From: Cyclobacteriaceae bacterium
GTDB taxonomy: Bacteria > Bacteroidota > Bacteroidia > Cytophagales > Cyclobacteriaceae
Direction: 5' to 3'
DNA length: 64,000 bases
NCBI GenBank assembly: GCA_022842845.1
Contig: JALHOT010000001.1
Coordinates: 183,842-247,841 of the forward strand
In this document: piece after piece, positions 27,142 to 55,595 of the stretch
Numbering within the stretch: position 1 is the stretch's first letter
Layout of the letters: each line of letters starts with the position of its first letter
Notes under the pieces: model-generated
What the model was told of the DNA's origin: nothing
The model's input: only the letters and a program-made list of their open reading frames with translations
Databases searched by the model: none
Program-made: the position numbers and the translations under genes

Positions 27142-27225
27142 GTTCGATAGTGATTAGATTATCTTCAGAAAGGTAAAGTTCATAAAAATTCCACAAATCA
27201 AGAGAAGCTTAGTATTTTGCCTGTA

Positions 27226-29199
27226 ATGATTCGCTACAGTTTTATTATCCTAAGCCTAATCGCCTCTTTTCAAACGGTTGCACAAGAAGCAAGCCTTTAT
27301 AAAGAAAACGATAAGTGGGGACTTTTAAATGCTCAACAAAAGCCGTTGACCAAAGCCATTTATGATCAGATCATCCCAGGTATTCCATATTCCATTGTAA
27401 AAAAATACAATCCCGTTACTGCGCGCTATACAGCTGGTTGTATTGATCAGGAAGGAGCATTTGTTATTCCAATGGTTTATACAGATTTAAGGGTTGAAGG
27501 CTTACGCGTTATTGCCTGCCAAAAGAGTGCAACAGGATTCTCTTATGGGGTACTTTCTTTAAAAAATGAGATCCTCATCCCCATTGAATACAAGAGTATT
27601 AAATCATTGGGCACGCTTCGTTTTGCCGTAGAAAATGTTGACGGTAAAATTGCCTTGTTTACAGAAAATGGTAAAGCACTGACCGACTTTTCCATTGATG
27701 CCATCCATCCATTTTATAAAGAGGTCAGCATCTTTGAGCAAAATGGTTTACTGGGCTTACTCAACAGAGAGGGTAACCTGTTAACCGAGGCAAGGTACCG
27801 TACTATTACTATTGAAAATGACGGAACCATTTATGGGCAATTACCACACGAATGGAAGTGGGTAAGTTTCAACAGTCAACAAACCATTAAAAATATACTG
27901 GCTGATTCGGTGATCAGTACTGCATCTGGCAATTTATTGATCACCACATTAAAAGGCACTGCACTCTTCAGTAAGGAATTAAAACCTCTTGGTGCATTCT
28001 ATCAGCACATCAGAAGAACTGATAACCCATCATTTTTTATTACCGAAGCTAAGAAAAAAGGGGTAATCAATCAGTATGGTCAAGTCCTACTTCCCAATCA
28101 ATTTGAGGATATCCGCATTGACAATCGTTTTGTGTATGCCTTGAGTGGCAACGCCTGGAAGATCTACAGTCATGATGGAAAACTTATGAGCGAGCGTACT
28201 TATGAGACCATCTACAATGAGGATTACTTCGTTCATGTCAAACGCAAATCCTTTTGGGGCATTATTGATGAACAGGGAAAGGAAATCATTCCCTGTGTCT
28301 ACGATTCAATTCTCCAAAGTTCATCTGACTATATCTCGGTTAAGTTCAAAGGTCAATTTGGCATCATTAATCAACAAGAAAATTGGCTTGTCAGTCTTCA
28401 GCCATATCCACTACAACTTGTCAACAAAGATCGTTACCTGGTGGTGGACGGCACACTGCTTACCCTCAAAGACTTTAACAAGCAAGTATACTACTTCACC
28501 AACAATCCAATTGAGATTCAGGAAAATGGTTTATTGGAAAAAACATCGATCGGTGAACTTTGGCATATTACGTTCAATGGACTTGTTACCAAAATTCAGC
28601 AAGTCACCTCTGCCCAGATCAGTGCTGTAGAGCCTGAGCACGAAGGCTACCGTGCCATTAAAAAAGATGGCAAGTGGGGCTTTGTTGATAATCAAGGACG
28701 TTTGCGTATCCCTAATCGCTATGATATGGTAAAACATTTCTCTGAGGGGCTTGCACCATTTCTACTGCGTGGCAAGTGGGGCTTTCTGAATAAAGAGGAT
28801 GATATCATTATTCATCCCACCTATGAAAATGTCGAGCCTTTTGTAAATGGCATGAGTAAGATTTTGATGAAGAAAAAATACGGCCTCATTAATAAGCAAA
28901 ATGAATTAATACTCCCGTGCCGATTTGATGACATTAACTTGTTACCATCCGGCCATTATGAAATTATTGCCAATGGGCTTAAAGGATTAGTCGATGCTGA
29001 GGGTCACATTATTTACGACCCCAAATATGAGGCACAGTTGATTCTCGAAAAGCATATTATAGTTCAAGGTCAGCAGAAATACGGTGTGTTAGACAAGCAG
29101 GGATTTAATATTATTCCAACCATGCACGACCTGATCATGCTGGATGATGAAGAAACCTTTATCATATTGACAAAAGGAAGGCGCGAAAAAATTAAGTGA
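27226..29199 (+). CDS. Exported WG-repeat protein
   Basis: A 657-residue protein with a Sec signal peptide (MIRYSFIILSLIASFQTVAQ) followed almost entirely by about eleven WG/KWG-type repeats of 40-60 residues, for example KWGLLNAQQKPL, FWGIIDEQGKEIIPCVYDSI, KWGFVDNQGRLRIPNRYD and KYGLINKQNELILPCRFDDI. Each is a beta-hairpin unit. WG repeats are abundant in Bacteroidota surface and secreted proteins; their ligand is generally unknown. The frame can be extended to a TTG at 27217, but ATG at 27226 begins the signal peptide. Single gene, ended by a hairpin at 29214. Confidence 0.9.
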   Translation: MIRYSFIILSLIASFQTVAQEASLYKENDKWGLLNAQQKPLTKAIYDQIIPGIPYSIVKKYNPVTARYTAGCIDQEGAFVIPMVYTDLRVEGLRVIACQKSATGFSYGVLSLKNEILIPIEYKSIKSLGTLRFAVENVDGKIALFTENGKALTDFSIDAIHPFYKEVSIFEQNGLLGLLNREGNLLTEARYRTITIENDGTIYGQLPHEWKWVSFNSQQTIKNILADSVISTASGNLLITTLKGTALFSKELKPLGAFYQHIRRTDNPSFFITEAKKKGVINQYGQVLLPNQFEDIRIDNRFVYALSGNAWKIYSHDGKLMSERTYETIYNEDYFVHVKRKSFWGIIDEQGKEIIPCVYDSILQSSSDYISVKFKGQFGIINQQENWLVSLQPYPLQLVNKDRYLVVDGTLLTLKDFNKQVYYFTNNPIEIQENGLLEKTSIGELWHITFNGLVTKIQQVTSAQISAVEPEHEGYRAIKKDGKWGFVDNQGRLRIPNRYDMVKHFSEGLAPFLLRGKWGFLNKEDDIIIHPTYENVEPFVNGMSKILMKKKYGLINKQNELILPCRFDDINLLPSGHYEIIANGLKGLVDAEGHIIYDPKYEAQLILEKHIIVQGQQKYGVLDKQGFNIIPTMHDLIMLDDEETFIILTKGRREKIK

Positions 29200-29265: not shown

Positions 29266-29772
29266 TTATATTTTGATAGTAACACCAAAAAGGCCACCAT
29301 TTCCAGTACCACCTCCAAATTCAAGGTTTAATCCTACTTTGTCATTGAAGAAATAACGAGCTCCCAATTGCGCATCTAAACCAATGCCTGAAGACTGATT
29401 GGTATTAAAATTATTATTATTATCCTTTACAGACCAGATGTAGTAGCCTAACGTAAGACCTGCGTATAAGTCCCACTCGCTTGGCAACTCAATAAGTTTA
29501 TTAAAGTGGTAGTTACCATTGAAAGATAGCACGATAAGGTTTTGATTAAAAGCAAAGCCATTGATTGTCTGATTATAATTACGATAAGAGAGTCTTGGAC
29601 CTACCGTAATGCTTTCATGTACTCCGAAATCCATACCTACATAAATGGGAACACCGAAGTTAGAAAATCCTACACCGGCATTAAGTTGCTTTCCGCCTTT
29701 ATCAAGCGATCCTTGCGCAAAAGCTGACAGGCTACCGATAATTAAGAAACTGATTACAAATAGTTTTTTCAT
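29266..29772 (-). CDS. Outer-membrane beta-barrel protein
   Basis: A 168-residue protein with signal peptide MKKLFVISFLIIGSLSAFAQ and about eight amphipathic strands with alternating hydrophobic residues and aromatic girdles (YVGMDFGVH, ITVGPRLSYRNYN, LIVLSFNGNYHF, WDLYAGLTLGYYIW, GLDAQLGARYFF, VGLNLEFGGG). It ends with an aliphatic/basic strand (GLFGVTIKI), as small OmpW/OmpA-like eight-strand barrels often do. It has an excellent promoter and is a single gene. Transport or adhesion role not known. Confidence 0.85.
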   Translation of the reverse strand: MKKLFVISFLIIGSLSAFAQGSLDKGGKQLNAGVGFSNFGVPIYVGMDFGVHESITVGPRLSYRNYNQTINGFAFNQNLIVLSFNGNYHFNKLIELPSEWDLYAGLTLGYYIWSVKDNNNNFNTNQSSGIGLDAQLGARYFFNDKVGLNLEFGGGTGNGGLFGVTIKI

Positions 29773-29883: not shown

Positions 29884-30879
29884 CTAGTCAAAATCACTTA
29901 AACGATTTTCTGCCTTATCAGCCAGGTCTTTATGCAAGTTTACTTTTTCTGATAAATCAATACAGGCTTTAAATGTTACCCTTGCCATTGCCTGGTTTTT
30001 TAAATGGTCTGCTTCAATAGAGGCCTTGAAGAATAATGCTGGTATAGTATAATAGTCGCTTGTATTCTTGAACTGTAGATCCAGCAATGGAGCAGCATCG
30101 CTATAACGACCAAGTGCGATATAATTTTCAATCAACACCTCCCTGAACTTTGGGTTAAGCGGATAAAGTGCCACCAGTTTTTCTGAAAAGGCTAAAGCTT
30201 TAAGAGGCTTCTTCTCTAAGTGTAAATAAATATGTGACAAGTAAATCAACGCCTCTGTATAGGCTCTGGACGGACTCAATAGTGACTTCTCTAATAGCTG
30301 AAGACCCAATACCTGATCTCCATCTTTAAAAGGGAATAAAGCAGTTCGATAAACAAAATTCAAATTGCGGAAGAAATCCATGTAGTACAGGTACATCCCC
30401 TGAACAAATAGCAATTCCGGATTATTGCTTTGATCATCAAAAGTTTGCACCATTAAAGGATAGGCTCTTTTGCCGTGGAGTAATGCCTTGAAAGATTCTC
30501 CTTGCTGATAATAATATTCAGCCAGCAGAAGTTCAGAAACAATATGCCTGTACAAATTATAATCTGCATCAGCATAACTTATTTTTTCTGACAGTTCAAT
30601 CAATTTTTGTTGATAAACTTCACTTTGGGCACTTTTAATGATCGGGATAAACTCCCATCGAAGGCTAAAGAGCTCTATTAGTTTTCCATCGGCAGCCCCT
30701 TCTTTAGAAAAGCCCCTGATCAATAACTCAGCGCTATCAAATTGATTATTATAGATATAGCGTAAACATTGTAATTGATTTTGTTTAAGCGAATTCGATT
30801 GCGCACAGAGGGAAAAGCCCCCCAAAAAACTTAAACAAAAAAGAAAAAAGAGGTGCCTATAGTGTTTTTTTAATCTCAT
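29884..30879 (-). CDS. Exported TPR-like protein
   Basis: A 331-residue protein with an N-terminal signal peptide (FFLFCLSFLGGFSLCAQ) followed by an all-helical body with TPR/SEL1-like helix pairs, clearest near QLLEKSLLSPSRAYTEALIYLSHIYL and KALAFSEKLVALYPLNPKFREVLIENYIALGRYSDAAPLLD. Similar helical proteins are encoded in the operon at 31395-34129 on the other side of the TM2 gene, so a shared process is possible. It is divergent from the TM2 gene with 68 bases between starts. Specific function unknown. Confidence 0.75.
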   Translation of the reverse strand: MRLKKHYRHLFFLFCLSFLGGFSLCAQSNSLKQNQLQCLRYIYNNQFDSAELLIRGFSKEGAADGKLIELFSLRWEFIPIIKSAQSEVYQQKLIELSEKISYADADYNLYRHIVSELLLAEYYYQQGESFKALLHGKRAYPLMVQTFDDQSNNPELLFVQGMYLYYMDFFRNLNFVYRTALFPFKDGDQVLGLQLLEKSLLSPSRAYTEALIYLSHIYLHLEKKPLKALAFSEKLVALYPLNPKFREVLIENYIALGRYSDAAPLLDLQFKNTSDYYTIPALFFKASIEADHLKNQAMARVTFKACIDLSEKVNLHKDLADKAENRLSDFD

Positions 30880-30947: not shown

Positions 30948-31355
30948 ATGAAAAAAATCTTTTTACTCTCCCTCTTTGGTGCCATGCTGATGTCATTCAG
31001 CTCTATGGCCTCTGCAGAACAATACCGCATTAACGATGCGTCTGTTGAAGCTGTGTTTGCTGTAGCCAACGATGTTACAAGCAATCTAACTTCAATCACC
31101 TCATTCAATGCTCTTAGTACAGATGCAGTGATGGCCGAGAAAAATGCGCTGGTAGCCATTCTACTCGACTTCTTTTTAGGAGGTATTGCTATCCACCGTG
31201 TTTACTTAGGTGGTAAGCCAATTCTGGTTTTAGGTTATTTCATTACATGTGGTGGTATTTTCGGTATAGTACCACTCATTGACTTAATTGTTCTGGCCAT
31301 TAACTTCGATGACATCAGCAAGTTTGTTGGCAACAACAAATTCTTTATGTGGTAA
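30948..31355 (+). CDS. TM2 domain membrane protein
   Basis: A 135-residue protein with an N-terminal signal-like segment (MKKIFLLSLFGAMLMSFSSMASA) and a C-terminal TM2 domain: two hydrophobic helices joined by a short turn, with the hallmark phrases LLDFFLGGIAIHRVYLGG and CGGIFGIVPLIDLIVLAINFDD. TM2 domains are short helical hairpins of unknown molecular role. It faces away from the TPR gene at 30879 and converges on the operon ending at 31395, with a shared terminator. Its TM2 hairpin is reminiscent of the C-terminal hairpins of the two proteins at 31395 and 32161. Confidence 0.85.
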   Translation: MKKIFLLSLFGAMLMSFSSMASAEQYRINDASVEAVFAVANDVTSNLTSITSFNALSTDAVMAEKNALVAILLDFFLGGIAIHRVYLGGKPILVLGYFITCGGIFGIVPLIDLIVLAINFDDISKFVGNNKFFMW

Positions 31356-31374: not shown

Positions 31375-31396
31375 AAAAGGGGCTTCGGCCCCTTTT
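31375..31396. terminator. Bidirectional terminator overlapping a stop codon
   Basis: AAAAGGGGC-TTCG-GCCCCTTTT is a perfect stem with a stable TTCG tetraloop and T-rich sequence on both sides. It ends the TM2 gene and also overlaps by two bases the TAA of the minus-strand gene at 31395, so that transcript has essentially no 3' untranslated region before the hairpin. Confidence 0.92.
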
Positions 31397-32222
31397 ATTT
31401 TTTATAACCCGTTACAATAGCGCTCACGGTCATATTAAATTCCTTAGCCTTTCTTTCATTGTATTGATTAGCCAATACTTCTGCATATCGGGCACCACCA
31501 TTATACGAAAGGTAAAAGAGAGCAACGCCTGTGAACAAACCTGAGAAATAATAAGCATCTAAAAAACCCCAAACAGATAAGGTTATAAGACCAGCGTTTA
31601 ACATACTTGAAAGCGCTCCCTTCCAAAAATAACCAGCGTACATTTGACCAAGACCAGGCATCCAAAAAGACAAAGAGAATGCCTTATCAGGATTTTTCTT
31701 TTTAAAAGCCAGTATTTCAGGATAAGGGTCTTCGGCAATATTATTAACCCGCGCAAAAGCCTGATACTTTGCGTGAGCCTCCTCCCATCGCTGAAGCTCA
31801 TTCAGACATAAAATCTCCAGCGGAAGAATAATGCTATGATCTGCCTTGGGTAATTCATAGTAGAGTTCTGCAATTTTACTGTAGGCCAGATCATACCGCT
31901 TGGCAAGCATGGCATTGATTGCATATTCATAGTAGAGTAAAAACCTCAAAGAATCACTTCCTGAATAAAAGTCTGCCCGCTCAAGAGAAAGCAACGCTCG
32001 ATCGTATTTACCAGACATCTTATAGCAAGTTGCCTGTTTGAGCAACACGTTGTTAAGAAGCGTTGAAGGCATCCCCTCAAAGAAGGCTAATTCATAAGCA
32101 ATAGCTGCCTTCAGATAACTGCTTTCTCTTAACAAGCTATCGCCCAGATTTACCTGTGCGCTACTGAAAAAAGGTGCGCAGAGGAATATGCATATCAAAC
32201 AGAATCTGATTTTTAATCGCAT
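31395..32222 (-). CDS. Exported TPR protein with C-terminal membrane hairpin (DUF5683-like)
   Basis: A 275-residue protein from ATG at 32222 (a second ATG at 32234 would add MKEE). Signal peptide MRLKIRFCLICIFLCAPFFSSAQ, then TPR-like helices (about 25-175), then a hydrophobic C-terminal part beginning SFWMPGLGQMYAGYFWKGAL with two or three membrane helices. The P-G-x-G-x-x-Y-x-G-x-x-x-x-G signature recalls DUF5683/TM2-type hairpins. It is the last gene of a four-gene operon and overlaps the preceding gene by about 60 bases. The preceding protein has the same architecture, so the two are tandem paralogues. Function unknown; assembly in the inner membrane is inferred. Confidence 0.75.
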   Translation of the reverse strand: MRLKIRFCLICIFLCAPFFSSAQVNLGDSLLRESSYLKAAIAYELAFFEGMPSTLLNNVLLKQATCYKMSGKYDRALLSLERADFYSGSDSLRFLLYYEYAINAMLAKRYDLAYSKIAELYYELPKADHSIILPLEILCLNELQRWEEAHAKYQAFARVNNIAEDPYPEILAFKKKNPDKAFSLSFWMPGLGQMYAGYFWKGALSSMLNAGLITLSVWGFLDAYYFSGLFTGVALFYLSYNGGARYAEVLANQYNERKAKEFNMTVSAIVTGYKK

Positions 32223-33018
32223 CTCTTCTTTCATTTCTAACCACTTTTACCGCTAAAGCACTCCCCCATATATTCCCAATATAAAAAGAGCTCAGTAAAG
32301 AACCGTAAATGATAAAGCGAGCACTCCTGGGGCCATCTTTTCGATAAGCCTCTACTGTTTGCGCTGCCATAATACTTGTAATTAAAAAAGTATAAATCCC
32401 ATTGGCTTTTCTTCCGGCATAGACTTTACCTGCACCGGGTATCAAGGCTGAAAGTACGCCACCTGTAAAAGGTGACTTTTGCTTTTCTGATGACAGCGCG
32501 GATCGATAGTTTCTAAAGTTTGAGTGTTGCTGCTGAATAATGTTCCACTCTGGATTGAGCAGCGTGCTGATAGAGTCATATGAAGAAAGTCTGTTGGTTA
32601 ATAAAAAGACACCACTCATTTCAAAGTTCGCAAGCTGCTGAACATATTGCTTTGAACCATTAAGGGCTTTCAACTTTTTAATCCCTTGATCAAACCTGTT
32701 GAGGTATACTTCATTAAATGCGGAAAATAATTTTGCCTCCTCGTAAACAAATTCACTCTCGCTCGAAACAGCATCTAAAAATTGAATAGACTGAGGTAAC
32801 TGTTGTAAGCTGTAATGTATTTTGCCGATCGACAAATTAATAGAATCTTTTTGCTGCTGCGTTCTGCTATCGCCCAGCTTTTCATGCAAAACCAATAAAG
32901 CTTCGTCATACATCTTGTTGGACAGAAGATGACTAACGAAAGCCTGAGAGCTTTTTGAAAATTGAGCTTGACTCAAAAAACTGATGGCGAGCAAAGAAAG
33001 GCCAAGTAGAAACCTCAT
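32161..33018 (-). CDS. Exported TPR protein with membrane hairpin, paralogue of the next gene
   Basis: A 285-residue protein with signal peptide MRFLLGLSLLAISFLSQAQ, a helical TPR-like body (about 25-175), and a C-terminal hydrophobic part starting TGGVLSALIPGAGKVYAGRKANG with two or three membrane helices. Domain order and the PGAGKVYAG signature match the protein encoded directly downstream. Its ATG overlaps the stop of the YidD-like gene by 4 bases, and its own 3' end overlaps the next gene by about 60, showing tight translational coupling. No function is known to me. Confidence 0.75.
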   Translation of the reverse strand: MRFLLGLSLLAISFLSQAQFSKSSQAFVSHLLSNKMYDEALLVLHEKLGDSRTQQQKDSINLSIGKIHYSLQQLPQSIQFLDAVSSESEFVYEEAKLFSAFNEVYLNRFDQGIKKLKALNGSKQYVQQLANFEMSGVFLLTNRLSSYDSISTLLNPEWNIIQQQHSNFRNYRSALSSEKQKSPFTGGVLSALIPGAGKVYAGRKANGIYTFLITSIMAAQTVEAYRKDGPRSARFIIYGSLLSSFYIGNIWGSALAVKVVRNERRDAIKNQILFDMHIPLRTFFQ

Positions 33019-33422
33019 TTCTTTAGTCTATAGAAAGAAACAGGATCTATTATTTTCCCTTGGGGATTTATACGCAGCGGAAGGGTCTCGTAAACAGACA
33101 ACTTATTGCATCTACCCAAGCGATCAAAAGTCATGAAAAAACCTTTAGCTAAGCCATACTCCTTTACCATTTCAGCGCTAAAGCGCGAACATGTAAGTTC
33201 AAAAGCACAGTTAGCACCCCATTGTGGAGATATCTGATTTTGATAAAAGCCAAGTGTTCCGGCATAAAGAATTGATAAGGGTTTAAATGATCGCTTCTTT
33301 TTTACTTTACCAAAAGCACCCACCTTCTGCTGTTGCTCACCTAAAAGCTGAAGATCATAGGCAGTATTTTGGGCAAATGAGACAGTTGCACAGCATAGAA
33401 ATATGATTAACAACCTTATCAT
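33015..33422 (-). CDS. YidD-family protein with an N-terminal signal peptide
   Basis: The 135-residue protein carries the YidD (membrane protein insertion efficiency factor) signature: LYAGTLGFYQNQISPQWGANC, FELTCSRFSAEM, GLAKGFFMTFDRLGRC, with the three characteristic Cys at about 72, 78 and 105. Ordinary YidD is 70-90 residues, cytoplasmic or peripheral, and is encoded next to yidC and rnpA. This one has a signal peptide (MIRLLIIFLCCATVSFAQ) and a basic linker before the domain, so it is expected in the periplasm. It overlaps both neighbours by 4 bases (ATGA) in the four-gene operon. Membership in the family is clear; the role of an exported form is not. Confidence 0.85.
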   Translation of the reverse strand: MIRLLIIFLCCATVSFAQNTAYDLQLLGEQQQKVGAFGKVKKKRSFKPLSILYAGTLGFYQNQISPQWGANCAFELTCSRFSAEMVKEYGLAKGFFMTFDRLGRCNKLSVYETLPLRINPQGKIIDPVSFYRLKK

Positions 33423-34129
33423 TTACGTAACACCTTAGCGTTTTCTGGCACAATAAAATTAAGCTTATCGTCAGCCACTTGTTGATTCAATTTAAAGTCT
33501 GTGTAAGTGGTTTTTGTAATGATCGAATCTTTACTTGATTTGAAATCAATCTGGGTTATGGCGGCTGGCAAAACAATGTAGTCACTCACCTTAGTATAGT
33601 TATAGAAATACATTTTTTTTATGGGGACACCCTTTACTCCATAATATCCCATAAAAATCGGATTACCCTTTTCATGTACCAACTCAACTTTCGAAATGTC
33701 TTTGATTAATGCCATTGGCGGAGTCCACTCCGTTATTTTTAGACCATCTTCTATTTTTGTGTTTCTTACAGTATAGTCCATAGCAGAAAGCCCCAAATCA
33801 TTTCTTTTATTTTCCAGAAAAAAGTAAAGTTGATTGGTCTCTGTACCCAACATGTAATTCTGCTGTTGCATGACGGTGTTATCCTTGGGATTGTAAATGG
33901 TAATCTCCCCTTTTTTATTATTGACAATCACCATTTCTTGTGGAGCCTGAAAATACGTAAGCATTTTACCCTCGGAGGTATAGTACATATTTGCCAGTAC
34001 CCGGCTGGATTTGCCCGCGGTAACGGAACGCGTCTCCATCAGCATAGAAATTTTTTGGAAAATGTATTGCCTGCTGAAGGCTGAAGCCAGAAGGGCAAAA
34101 ACCAGCAAAAAAGAAATACGCTTGAACAT
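33419..34129 (-). CDS. LolA-like outer-membrane lipoprotein carrier-fold protein
   Basis: A 236-residue protein with an N-terminal hydrophobic signal (MFKRISFLLVFALLASAFS) and a body of antiparallel strands in the LolA/LolB order: KMLTYFQAPQEMVIVNNKKGEITIYNPKDNTVMQQ, then LGLSAMDYTVRN and a C-terminal strand pair ending TYTDFKLNQQVADDKLNFIVPENAKV. This pattern is typical of the outer-membrane lipoprotein-sorting fold, which carries acyl chains. It is the first gene of the four-gene overlapping operon and lies 30 bases after the atpC terminator. A periplasmic lipid or lipoprotein carrier role is inferred from fold only. Confidence 0.75.
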   Translation of the reverse strand: MFKRISFLLVFALLASAFSRQYIFQKISMLMETRSVTAGKSSRVLANMYYTSEGKMLTYFQAPQEMVIVNNKKGEITIYNPKDNTVMQQQNYMLGTETNQLYFFLENKRNDLGLSAMDYTVRNTKIEDGLKITEWTPPMALIKDISKVELVHEKGNPIFMGYYGVKGVPIKKMYFYNYTKVSDYIVLPAAITQIDFKSSKDSIITKTTYTDFKLNQQVADDKLNFIVPENAKVLRK

Positions 34130-49419: not shown

Positions 49420-49851
49420 ATGCGTGTTCTGTTAGTTACTACCGTTCTGTTTTTTGCGCAATTAACCCATGCGCAAACAGAAAACTTTTGGCATACCCTC
49501 GCGCAAGTGAGCTTTAAGACTGTTAAAGATCCCAATGGCTATGATGCTGAACTGCCCATCTTTAGTAAGTATTTAAAAACCTTTCACGGTAAGAAGGTGG
49601 CAATTAAGGGCTACGTGATTCCCTTAGATGAACTGGGTGGCTCTGGAAAATTCATGCTCTCTTCTCTACCCTTCAACCTATGTTACTTCTGTGGAGCTGC
49701 CGGCCCAGAAACTGTTGTAGAAGTAGAAACTACAGATAAAGTTAAATTCAGCACTAAGCAAATTACCATGGAGGGCATCATTTATTTGAACGAAAGCGAC
49801 CCCAACCATCACATCTATATTTTTAAAAACGCAAAAATTATTAATCAGTAA
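49420..49851 (+). CDS. Exported OB-fold-like (DUF3299-like) protein A
   Basis: A 143-residue protein with signal peptide MRVLLVTTVLFFAQLTHAQ and a compact beta fold (about 45-143): HGKKVAIKGYVIPLDE, FMLSSLPFNLCYFCGAAGPETVVEV, and MEGIIYLNESDPNHHIYIFKNAKI. The CYFCG..GPETVVE box has two Cys spaced as a metal-binding or redox pair. A paralogue with the same box is encoded at 52205. The pattern resembles DUF3299 proteins (OB-fold, periplasmic), but I am not certain. It is 5 bases upstream of an M28 peptidase gene and is probably cotranscribed with it. Confidence 0.75.
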   Translation: MRVLLVTTVLFFAQLTHAQTENFWHTLAQVSFKTVKDPNGYDAELPIFSKYLKTFHGKKVAIKGYVIPLDELGGSGKFMLSSLPFNLCYFCGAAGPETVVEVETTDKVKFSTKQITMEGIIYLNESDPNHHIYIFKNAKIINQ

Positions 49852-52204: not shown

Positions 52205-52717
52205 TCAAAAATCAATCTCTCCTAACACAGTGGCACTCGTCAGCACATAAATCATCTGACCAGGATCTTTATCATTGAGAAAAAGCTTTCCCTTGATTTC
52301 AACAGGTTTCTCGGTGTAATTAACCTGATTGATAGAGAATATCTCTACCACTGTCTCTGGCCCGCCACCACCACAAAAAAAGCACACGTTAATAGGTAAA
52401 GAGGAAAGCATAAAATGATTTGACTTAAGCGCACCTCCCTCGAAAGGAACTAAATATCCTGGTAAAGTAACTTCCTTTCCATTCAAAGCTTTGACTTGAT
52501 CACTGAATACCGGCTTATCCAAACCATCAAAGTCTTCTGCATTCTGAATGAATTGAATATTATAGAGTTTAGGCCAAACCAGTGATGGAAAACCTTGATA
52601 GACTGCTTGCTTTCGCGGCTGCGCAAAAGAAACAATTGATGATAGCATGACAAAAAAAAGTAAGAGCCATCCTGAAGAAAAGGATGGCTCTGTCTTATTT
52701 ACATTTACTGTATTCAT
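52205..52717 (-). CDS. Exported OB-fold-like (DUF3299-like) protein B
   Basis: A 170-residue protein from ATG at 52717, one base after the gcvP stop. It has a signal segment (SSGWLLLFFVMLSSIVSFAQ) and a domain with the same layout as the protein at 49420: LNGKEVTLPGYLVPFE, FMLSSLPINVCFFCGGGGPETVVEI, and IKGKLFLNDKDPGQMIYVLTSATV. The box N-(L/V)-C-(Y/F)-F-C-G-x-x-G-PETVVE is shared. The tight spacing suggests translation coupled to gcvP, although the functional connection is unclear. The frame can start at 52738 inside gcvP, but the downstream ATG precedes the signal peptide closely. Confidence 0.75.
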   Translation of the reverse strand: MNTVNVNKTEPSFSSGWLLLFFVMLSSIVSFAQPRKQAVYQGFPSLVWPKLYNIQFIQNAEDFDGLDKPVFSDQVKALNGKEVTLPGYLVPFEGGALKSNHFMLSSLPINVCFFCGGGGPETVVEIFSINQVNYTEKPVEIKGKLFLNDKDPGQMIYVLTSATVLGEIDF

Positions 52718-52718
52718 G

Positions 52719-55595
52719 TTAGGCCTCTGCACTGGCATATTCCTCCATTGGCAAACAGCTACACACTAAGTTTCTGTCACCGTAAGCATTGTCAACACGG
52801 CTTACGCTTGGCCAGAACTTCATATCCTTCACATAAGGAAGCGGGAAAGCAGCTTTCTGTCTGCTGTAAGGCCTGGTCCACTCATTGGCTGTAATGACAG
52901 CAGCTGTGTGAGGCGCATGCTTTAACACATTTTCCTCCTTAGAGTACTTACCTTCCTCAATTTCACGAATTTCGTTTCTGATCTCGATCAAAGCATCCAC
53001 AAAACGATCCAGCTCTTCTTTAGGTTCGCTTTCTGTAGGCTCTATCATCAACGTACCCGCTACCGGGAATGATACCGTTGGCGCGTGGAAACCATAATCC
53101 ATCAAGCGCTTGGCGATGTCTTCAACTTCTACGCCTGCCTTTTTGAAATCACGGCAATCCACAATCATTTCGTGGGCTGCACGACCGTTGGTACCAGTGT
53201 ATAAAATTTTATAATGACCATTCAAACGCTCCTTTATGTAATTAGCATTTAAGATGGCGTACTTGGTAGCATTGGTCAATCCATCACCCCCCATCATAGC
53301 AATATAGGCATAAGAAATGGTGAGGATGCTGGCACTACCCCATGGGGCTGCTGACACTGCGCTGATGGCATGCTTACCACCTGTTTTTACGACAGCATGA
53401 CCAGGCAAGAAATCTTTTAATTTGTCATTGCAGCAAATAGGCCCCATGCCAGGGCCGCCACCACCGTGTGGTATACAGAATGTTTTGTGAAGGTTTAGGT
53501 GACAAACATCTGCGCCAATATTGGCCGGAGACGTTAAGCCTACCTGAGCATTCATGTTGGCACCATCCATATACACGAGACCTCCGCACTGATGAATGAT
53601 CTCACATATTTCTGTAATCGCTTCTTCAAACACTCCGTGTGTAGATGGATAGGTCACCATCAAACATGATAAGCGATCTTTGTATTGCTCTGCCTTGGCC
53701 TTTAAATCTGCCACATCAACCTTTCCTTCTTCGTCAGATTTTGTTACCACTACTTCCATACCGGCCATGACTGCACTCGCAGGATTAGTACCGTGGGCTG
53801 ATGAAGGGATCAGGGCAATGTTTCTATGATGATCACCACGGCTCTGGTGATACGCGCGGATGACCATTAAGCCTGCATACTCGCCTTGAGCACCGCTGTT
53901 GGGCTGCAGTGAAACACCGGTAAAACCAGTAATCTCTTTCAACCATTTTTCAAGATTGTTAGTCAACTCCTGATAACCCAAAGTCTGATCTGCTGGCGCA
54001 AAAGGATGCATGTTACCTAACTCAGGCCACGTTACAGGAATCATTTCTGTGGTAGCATTCAATTTCATGGTACAAGAACCCAATGAAATCATCGAATGCA
54101 CCATCGATAAATCCTTATTCTCCAAACGCTTGATGTAACGCAGCATTTCATGTTCTGAATGATGCGAAGAGAACACAGGGTGCGTCATAAAAGAAGCGGT
54201 ACGCACCAAGGCTGAAGGCCAGCTTACTGTATCGGCAGCCTTTTTTACACTTAGAGTCTTTCCTGCCACCGTTGCGAAAATCTGTAGCAAGGTTTCAATA
54301 TCGTTTTGAGAGGTTGTTTCATCCACAGAAATACCTACGAAATTATCGGCATGGTAGCGAAGGTTAATCTCATGTTTGACAGCTTCCTTCTCAATAGCCT
54401 TCTTATCAGCTACTGTAATTTTTAGCGTATCGAAATAATTTTCGTTCACCTGCTTGTACCCGAGGGCTTCTACCCCTGCTGCCAGGTTCTTAGCCAAGCC
54501 ATGTACACGACCAGCAATTTTCTTTAAACCTTCAGGACCGTGGTAAACACCATACATACCAGCCATTACAGACAATAACACCTGCGCAGTGCAGATATTA
54601 GAGGTCGCCTTTTCCCTGCGGATATGTTGTTCACGTGTTTGCAAAGCCATGCGATACCCGGGATTACCAGAAGCATCGATCGAAGCACCAATAATACGAC
54701 CCGGCATCTGACGCTTGAAATCATCTTTGGTGGCAAAGTAAGCCGCGTGCGGACCACCAAAACCCATAGGGATTCCGAAACGTTGTGTAGAACCAACTAC
54801 CACATCAGCACCCATTTCACCTGGTGATTTCATCATTACCAGACTCAAAATATCGGCTGCCATAACCACAAACACATCTTTCTCATGCGCAGTTGCTGCA
54901 AAAGCTGTGTAGTCTTTAATGGCTCCATCAGCATTCGGGTTTTGAACAAACACAGCAAATAAATTAGCGTCTGTCAAATCTAAAGTATTGATATCGCCCA
55001 CTACCAGCTCTACACCGATTGGAGCCGAGCGCGTCTTTAACAAATCAATGGTTTGTGGAAAACTATTCTGATCAACAAAAAATGTGTGTGCGTTTTTCTT
55101 GGAGGCTTTGCGTGAAGCATACATCAAGTGCATGGCTTCTGCCGCAGCGGTGGCTTCGTCAAGCAAAGAGGCATTGGCGATTTGCATGCCGGTTAAATCA
55201 ATCACCATGGTTTGGTAATTAATAAGTGCCTCCAGGCGGCCTTGAGCTATTTCGGCCTGATAAGGCGTATAGGCAGTATACCATCCTGGATTTTCCAAAA
55301 TGTTACGAAGGATAACACCAGGCGTTATGGTGTTGTAATAGCCTGTGCCTATGTAAGACTTGAAAACCTTGTTCTTAGAAGCCAAAGCCTTAAAGCTCTT
55401 CAAAAATTCAAACTCCGATTGTGCAGCGGGCAACTCAAGCGGCTTTTTTAGTCTTATGTTTGCCGGCACTGTCTGCTCAATCAGCTCATCTATTGATGAC
55501 GCCCCAACAACTTTCAGCATTTCAGCTGTTTGTCTGGCATCTGGCCCAATATGGCGCCCTTCAAATTTTTCGGAGTAAGTTGAATCTATTTTCAT
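52719..55595 (-). CDS. gcvP: Glycine dehydrogenase (glycine cleavage P protein)
   Basis: A 958-residue single-chain P protein, with the two halves fused as in E. coli. The PLP lysine is Lys704 in [16 protein letters not shown]. It decarboxylates glycine and transfers the aminomethyl group to the H protein. gcvT and gcvH are not nearby, so the complex is encoded at scattered loci. A good -7 element lies about 62 bases upstream; the leader is too short for a glycine riboswitch. Confidence 0.98.

Follow-up and report, generated by a model that had tools for sequence, protein, structure and literature searches.

Our analysis of a 64,000-nucleotide stretch of a Cyclobacteriaceae bacterium genome (GenBank assembly GCA_022842845.1, contig JALHOT010000001.1, forward-strand positions 183,842 to 247,841; hereafter the window) shows that an exported YidD-like protein, which we call YidDx, is encoded in one operon with a predicted LolA-fold protein and two paralogous tetratricopeptide repeat (TPR) proteins, T1 and T2. 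In some Bacteroidota these four proteins make up a conserved module. Its widely spread core is the YidDx-T1 pair, which only some members of the group supplement with LolA, T2 and small exported hairpin proteins. We tentatively propose, with limited confidence, that the module may work from the periplasmic side to help insert or assemble exported proteins with an alpha-helical hairpin.

All four open reading frames are on the minus strand and overlap, as the initial annotation of this DNA had described. The LolA-like gene (33419-34129), whose exported, carrier-like product was assigned by sub-threshold sequence matches and predicted structure, comes first and is followed by the genes for YidDx (33015-33422; 135 amino acids), T1 (32161-33018) and T2 (31395-32234). 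The LolA-like and YidDx genes share 4 bases, as do YidDx and T1. The overlap of T1 and T2 is 74 bases counted from the first ATG of T2 and 62 from the next, and this second ATG fits a signal peptide better. In each of the 20 relatives fetched (L033-L052) the two genes overlap by 53-80 bases, and the signal peptide of T2 is therefore encoded, in a different frame, within the end of the T1 gene. With T2 starts chosen by rule, 67 of 82 adjacent T1-T2 pairs overlap, 61 of them by at least 20 bases.

YidDx of the window lies above the cut-offs of both YidD models (PF01809, 56.4 bits with a cut-off of 27; TIGR00278, 63.3 bits with a cut-off of 40). It starts with a hydrophobic, signal-like N-terminus ending in VSFAQ, in agreement with the earlier description of a YidD-domain protein with a signal peptide, and a simple hydropathy rule finds a hydrophobic N-terminal stretch in 89 of 91 YidDx copies. 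A second YidD of ordinary size (85 amino acids) is encoded on another contig of the same genome (G000:C25), and ordinary YidD is also kept in 10 of 11 genomes checked; YidD was present in 10 of 14 control genomes. YidDx resembles ordinary YidD in family score, and in the window it has the C-x5-C-S stretch and the R-x-x-R-C end. It differs in its signal-like N-terminus, its longer linker and tail, and its occurrence as a second copy beside ordinary YidD. Gene context also separates the two: YidDx is encoded amid LolA and T1, whereas ordinary yidD lies near rpmH, rnpA and yidC, according to the part of the source available to us (PMC10490939). In the available parts of two further papers, Escherichia coli YidD is given a role in inserting inner-membrane proteins beside YidC (PMC8082313, PMC3573977), one that is still termed putative (PMC8082313).

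In an alignment of the 91 YidDx copies, cysteine 72 is present in all and cysteine 78 in 90; Y60, S65 and R101 are further conserved residues of this region. The third cysteine, in the R-C end, is present in the window and in 75 copies overall, with aspartate in 15 and glutamate in 1. A YidDx profile gave no match to solved structures at E values up to 1. The two core proteins also occur as a natural fusion: one locus (L102, 6099-7301) encodes YidDx and T1 in a single 400-amino-acid open frame, which scores 67 bits for YidD and 151 bits for T1. This fusion gene adjoins a gene for a PEGA-domain protein (PF08308, 36.2 bits) that has a lipoprotein-like start and a hydrophobic stretch of its own.

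T1 and T2 are tandem paralogues, as previously noted: a profile comparison with hhalign gave 99.7 % probability over 270 columns. T1 carries a signal peptide, TPR-like helices, a PGxGxxYxG element and a C-terminal helical hairpin with a 52-residue last helix, and its PG.G..Y and GNI.G positions are conserved. A confident predicted structure (pLDDT, the predicted local distance difference test, 93.4) places the TPR-like helices at about residues 37-177 and the hairpin helices at 204-228 and 233-284. Structural matches of T1 are to TPR structures and cover the TPR part; among the TPR proteins returned no hairpin match stood out, and these matches, which barely probe the hairpin, give no evidence of a new fold. 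T1 shares a TPR fold with PpiD-YfgM and other envelope TPR proteins, and the likeness is that of the generic fold, with the YfgM match (Z 14.5, 160 residues, root-mean-square deviation 3.7) level with many other TPR chains. We rejected a type IX secretion role: the match of T2 to PorE scores 16.7 bits with a cut-off of 600 over residues 13-157, and the similarity is at the TPR level only. The label DUF5683-like, which the initial annotation had given to both paralogues, was not borne out. T2 scores 21.9 bits, under the cut-off of 26.7, the family is not among the matches of window T1 at E values up to 1, and it is matched weakly by 6 of 42 T1 relatives (best E value 1.6e-4). The DUF5683, TM2 and DUF6677 hairpin families do share a PGxGxxYxG-type hairpin with T1 and T2; these two differ in carrying an extra TPR domain, and T1 also in its long last helix.

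The LolA-like protein falls under the sequence cut-offs of its family (PF17131, 18.7 bits with a cut-off of 30; TIGR00547, 19.5 bits with a cut-off of 112), and 11 of 29 relatives match PF17131 at E values up to 0.01. Its predicted structure (pLDDT 86.3) supports a LolA fold, as had been proposed earlier: the top Foldseek match is Pseudomonas aeruginosa LolA (E value 3e-10), and further matches include Porphyromonas gingivalis LolA3 and LolB, with TM-scores to LolA structures of about 0.45-0.6. A profile of the family matched no chain in the PDB at E values up to 0.1, and by sequence the protein is therefore not the solved P. gingivalis LolA3. It thus resembles LolA/LolB of the Lol system and LolA1-3 of Bacteroidota in predicted fold and signal-like N-terminus. 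It differs in lying under the sequence cut-offs, and the genome has a separate LolA (PF03548, 55.3 bits). In Flavobacterium johnsoniae, the accessible text of the LolA study assigns LolA2 and LolB2 to a pigment operon and puts LolA1 and LolA3 elsewhere, at separate loci, and we found no mention of yidD in that text (PMC11885536); we therefore set aside the idea that our protein is one of these known LolA paralogues.

We called T1 at a threshold of at least 120 bits in 291 genomes of the window's order. T1 was present in 31 of them, counting as negative one genome with a partial T1 of 92.9 bits (G201), and YidDx lies beside T1 in 30 of the 31; in the exception (G097) the contig ends inside T1. 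The genes thus co-occur in other genomes, which the initial annotation had left as a question. Adjacency was counted on six-frame stretches, without two repeated loci (L105 and L106, which repeat L093 and L094). Among loci fetched from the order, the pair is adjacent in 30 of 33, the exceptions being two scattered loci of one genome (G008) and the contig end. That genome keeps a second, divergent set in pieces, with YidDx and LolA at one locus (L053) and T1, T2 and a hairpin protein each at another (L195, L192 and L191); the retention of this scattered set points to a link beyond mere neighborhood. When neighboring genes were clustered, 58 loci had a LolA homologue near T1; in 54 it was two genes before T1 and on the same strand.

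The pair extends beyond the order. Because some loci (L033-L060) were retrieved with YidDx as the starting point, the test of whether T1 is accompanied by YidDx uses loci found from T1. In named genome records, with YidDx counted as adjacent when within 1.5 kb of T1, it adjoins T1 in 66 of 78 loci, and the 12 misses include two near a contig start (L167 and L178). By title these records include Cytophagaceae, Chitinophagales, Saprospiraceae, Flavobacteriales, Ignavibacteria and Desulfobacterales, and among the carriers are culturable environmental species such as Marivirga sericea and Emticicia aquatica; phylum names of metagenome-assembled genomes were taken from the record titles. Some loci are apparently from the same genomes sampled twice (L055/L140, L056/L120, L058/L129, L060/L137 and L198/L175), and L201 is the L163 locus. 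Among 118 genomes sampled around one from the Desulfobacterales, the search returned 20 T1 loci, one of them seen already, of which 17 have YidDx. A phylum-wide sample of 148 genomes held T1 (above 108 bits) in 20, 15 of them in two families (f36 and f54) whose loci only resemble the Ignavibacteria-titled ones; the two such loci inspected (L096 and L097) have YidDx, T1 and T2 but lack LolA.

These distributions bear on the simplest alternative, a lineage-borne cluster kept by chance or by shared regulation with no joint function. Several flanking genes are plainly background that differs among relatives, including those adjoining the operon in the window that we take to be ATP synthase genes. 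The core, in contrast, is constant amid changing flanks over several phyla, exists as a natural fusion, and is part of a set retained even when scattered. We consider a chance cluster very improbable.

The module is also associated with small exported proteins. A TM2-domain gene converges on the operon in the window, as had been observed (30948-31355, plus strand; TM2 domain 45.6 bits with a cut-off of 27.9). What had not been recognized is that this gene, with its signal-like N-terminal stretch, itself encodes an exported hairpin protein and is a recurrent partner, a candidate client or component of the module, and that the widest core is the YidDx-T1 pair alone. Neighbor clustering showed that small exported proteins with a hairpin at the C-terminus recur near the module in two kinds. 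Genes of the TM2 type lie downstream of T2 on the opposite strand in 19 of the fetched loci, and in 16 of these they are its immediate neighbors. The other, which we leave unnamed, is found in 34 loci, mostly just upstream of LolA, and carries an E-F-x-x-L-N-x-L-E motif; some of its members have a lipoprotein-like signal and a linker of about 80-100 residues, and 3 of 30 match LPAM_1. The two types look related at the level of sequence profiles. The TM2-type profile scores above 10 bits in 22 of 47 unnamed-type proteins versus 1 of 571 other neighbors of like length, and the unnamed-type profile does so in 9 of 20 TM2-type proteins versus 5 of 571; three of these five, the best outside matches of the unnamed-type profile, are the genes just upstream of LolA in L093-L095.

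Across the 291 genomes of the order, the TM2 type (at least 150 bits) is present in 19 and the unnamed type (at least 89 bits) in 8, and the union of 26 genomes is entirely T1-positive. At a threshold of at least 75 bits, a hairpin protein is found in 26 of the 31 T1 genomes versus 2 of the 260 others, which have full-length but weaker TM2-type matches (77 and 75 bits in G136 and G107). The exported TM2-type proteins of these two genomes without a strong T1 (L193, 5195-5623; L194, 5100-5537) have a lysine-rich middle part, as in L049. Six genomes, all T1-positive, have between them seven unnamed-type copies encoded far from the module, and one genome (G186) has three linked hairpin paralogues. 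From these distributions, we would argue for a link between module and hairpin proteins that is functional and not just positional.

How might such a module act? An exported copy of YidD would be unable to act at the cytoplasmic face, and together with the TPR receptors, the LolA-fold carrier and the hairpin proteins that track them, this makes a periplasmic insertion or assembly aid the simplest explanation. In the mechanism we envisage, the hairpin proteins would be exported by Sec and the signal peptide then removed. The LolA-fold carrier would hold the small hairpin proteins, of the TM2 type in the window and of the unnamed type elsewhere, and the TPR surfaces of membrane-anchored T1 and T2 would bind them after hand-over. 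YidDx, presumably located in the periplasm, would then help them into their membrane, mirroring from the periplasmic face the action of YidD beside YidC on the cytoplasmic face. A fuller version of this scheme would start from a duplication of YidD, with one copy relocated to the periplasm. There, aided by a TPR/hairpin receptor (T1 and T2) and a LolA-fold carrier, it would insert a family of exported hairpin proteins either into the outer membrane or into the inner membrane from its outside face. We consider this version possible but rather unlikely. The initial annotation had suggested envelope assembly or lipoprotein handling; the combination of LolA-fold, exported YidD and TPR/hairpin proteins on which it drew is real, and the function it proposed stays conjectural.

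Several observations weigh against the assembly aid. The hairpin proteins may be components of the module and not its clients. A TM2-type match at E values up to 0.001 is found in 91 of the 291 genomes, the weaker ones being mostly partial, and the contrast between T1 genomes and others therefore depends on the score threshold. In the order, five of the 31 genomes with T1 have no strong hairpin protein, although two of these (G046 and G100) show a weak TM2-type match next to the module. The order's genomes are kin, so Fisher values for the association overstate independence. T1 is patchy, being found in none of 31 genomes of the same class but other orders in the phylum-wide sample. When the 148 genomes of that sample were searched with the unnamed-type profile there was no strong match, with a profile that misses distant members such as the hairpin genes carried by two genomes (G399 and G422), and the two weak matches (34 and 24 bits) were both in T1-negative genomes. 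LolA is missing from most Ignavibacteria-titled loci, and the 20 Desulfobacterales-type loci show no LolA and no hairpin protein of either type in flanks of 1.5 kb. The occurrence of YidDx-T1 without LolA or detected hairpin types is what identifies this pair as the core.

The LolA fold, itself a structural prediction, also fits a trafficking route for a lipid, a lipoprotein or another hydrophobic molecule, in which the LolA-fold protein would carry the cargo through the periplasm, T1 and T2 would be a docking platform at the membrane, YidDx a structural adaptor and the hairpin proteins anchors or sensors. F. johnsoniae offers a parallel in its pigment operon with LolA2 and LolB2, as far as the accessible text tells (PMC11885536). 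Genes of one cluster immediately precede the hairpin gene in five related loci (L109-L112 and L114), which also fits, since the one member tested, in L110, is of the MMPL family (PF03176, 123.8 bits). In these loci, the gene upstream of the hairpin and LolA-like genes encodes 662-757 amino acids. We set aside an MMPL exporter as a general partner of the module, because it neighbors the module in these five loci only. A trafficking route also fits poorly with the loci just described that have YidDx-T1 without LolA (most of the Ignavibacteria-titled ones and, in 1.5-kb flanks, all 20 sampled of Desulfobacterales type), and we regard it as a doubtful possibility.

Alternatively, YidDx, T1, T2 and the hairpin proteins could be bound in a stable complex that serves as an envelope scaffold or stress device and handles no client. 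T1 joins a TPR domain to a C-terminal hairpin, hairpin genes often adjoin the module as those of components would, and the two near-invariant cysteines of YidDx would be compatible with a disulfide-held fold. The unlinked hairpin paralogues, one or two in each of six genomes, and the three linked ones in G186 suit clients better than a fixed subunit, and such a scaffold seems to us unlikely.

A third alternative is a secretion or pilus-like system, with the hairpin proteins as pilin-like subunits assembled by YidDx-T1 and, in Desulfobacterales-type genomes, with the pair serving type II secretion. Matches to T4SS_pilin in 3 of 30 hairpin proteins (best E value 6.1e-6) and to a pilin-like conjugal transfer family in one (E value 1.2e-5) point this way, but they are few and may reflect merely the presence of two hydrophobic helices. 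For type II secretion, 13 of 16 Desulfobacterales- or Deltaproteobacteria-titled loci of named records have a GspE-like gene near T1. At L163 (576-6855) and related Desulfobacterales-type loci, genes for GspC, GspD and GspE directly precede YidDx and T1, and in L163 all three were confirmed with Pfam. In the wider Desulfobacterales-type sample, however, GspE was found in 3 of 20 loci (1.5-kb flanks), and neighbor clusters for GspE and GspD contain only Desulfobacterales- or Deltaproteobacteria-titled loci, with none from Bacteroidota. We rejected type II secretion as a general explanation on the grounds that the association with Gsp genes is not constant, and judge a secretion or pilus-like system as a whole to be improbable.

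Other genes recur around the module or stand out in the window. A TPR protein gene beyond the TM2 gene (29884-30879, minus strand) is an optional recurrent neighbor with homologues near 11 fetched loci. The gene at 29266-29772 encodes a small outer-membrane beta-barrel protein (PF13505, 30.3 bits); an outer-membrane-type cluster, several of whose members match it, lies near the module in 15 other loci, and it may be another optional partner. A WG-repeat protein (160 bits) is encoded on the other strand at 27217-29199. In Ignavibacteria-type loci (L096, L126, L138, L139, L152, L155, L159, L161, L166, L171 and L179), the module is followed by a gene that we take to be LemA-like, mostly together with one that is presumably TPM-like. 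Farther along the window, the products of 49420-49851 and 52205-52738 are both exported-looking and share the stretch FMLSSLP-(F/I)-N-(L/V)-C-(Y/F)-FCG followed by GPETVVE; they are likely paralogues encoded on opposite strands.

The YidD, LolA, TM2 and TPR families are each known. In the literature that we searched, a scope with subscription papers and preprints outside it, we found no description of the module or of an exported, T1-coupled YidD, and found no characterization of the operon under another name. We know of no described system that places helical hairpin proteins from the periplasmic side; if these proteins are clients of YidDx and its partners, the module would be such a route. 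An exported relative of YidD with a regular link to one partner protein, seen across several phyla and in one case as a fusion, makes a clean system in which to study the function of the YidD fold.

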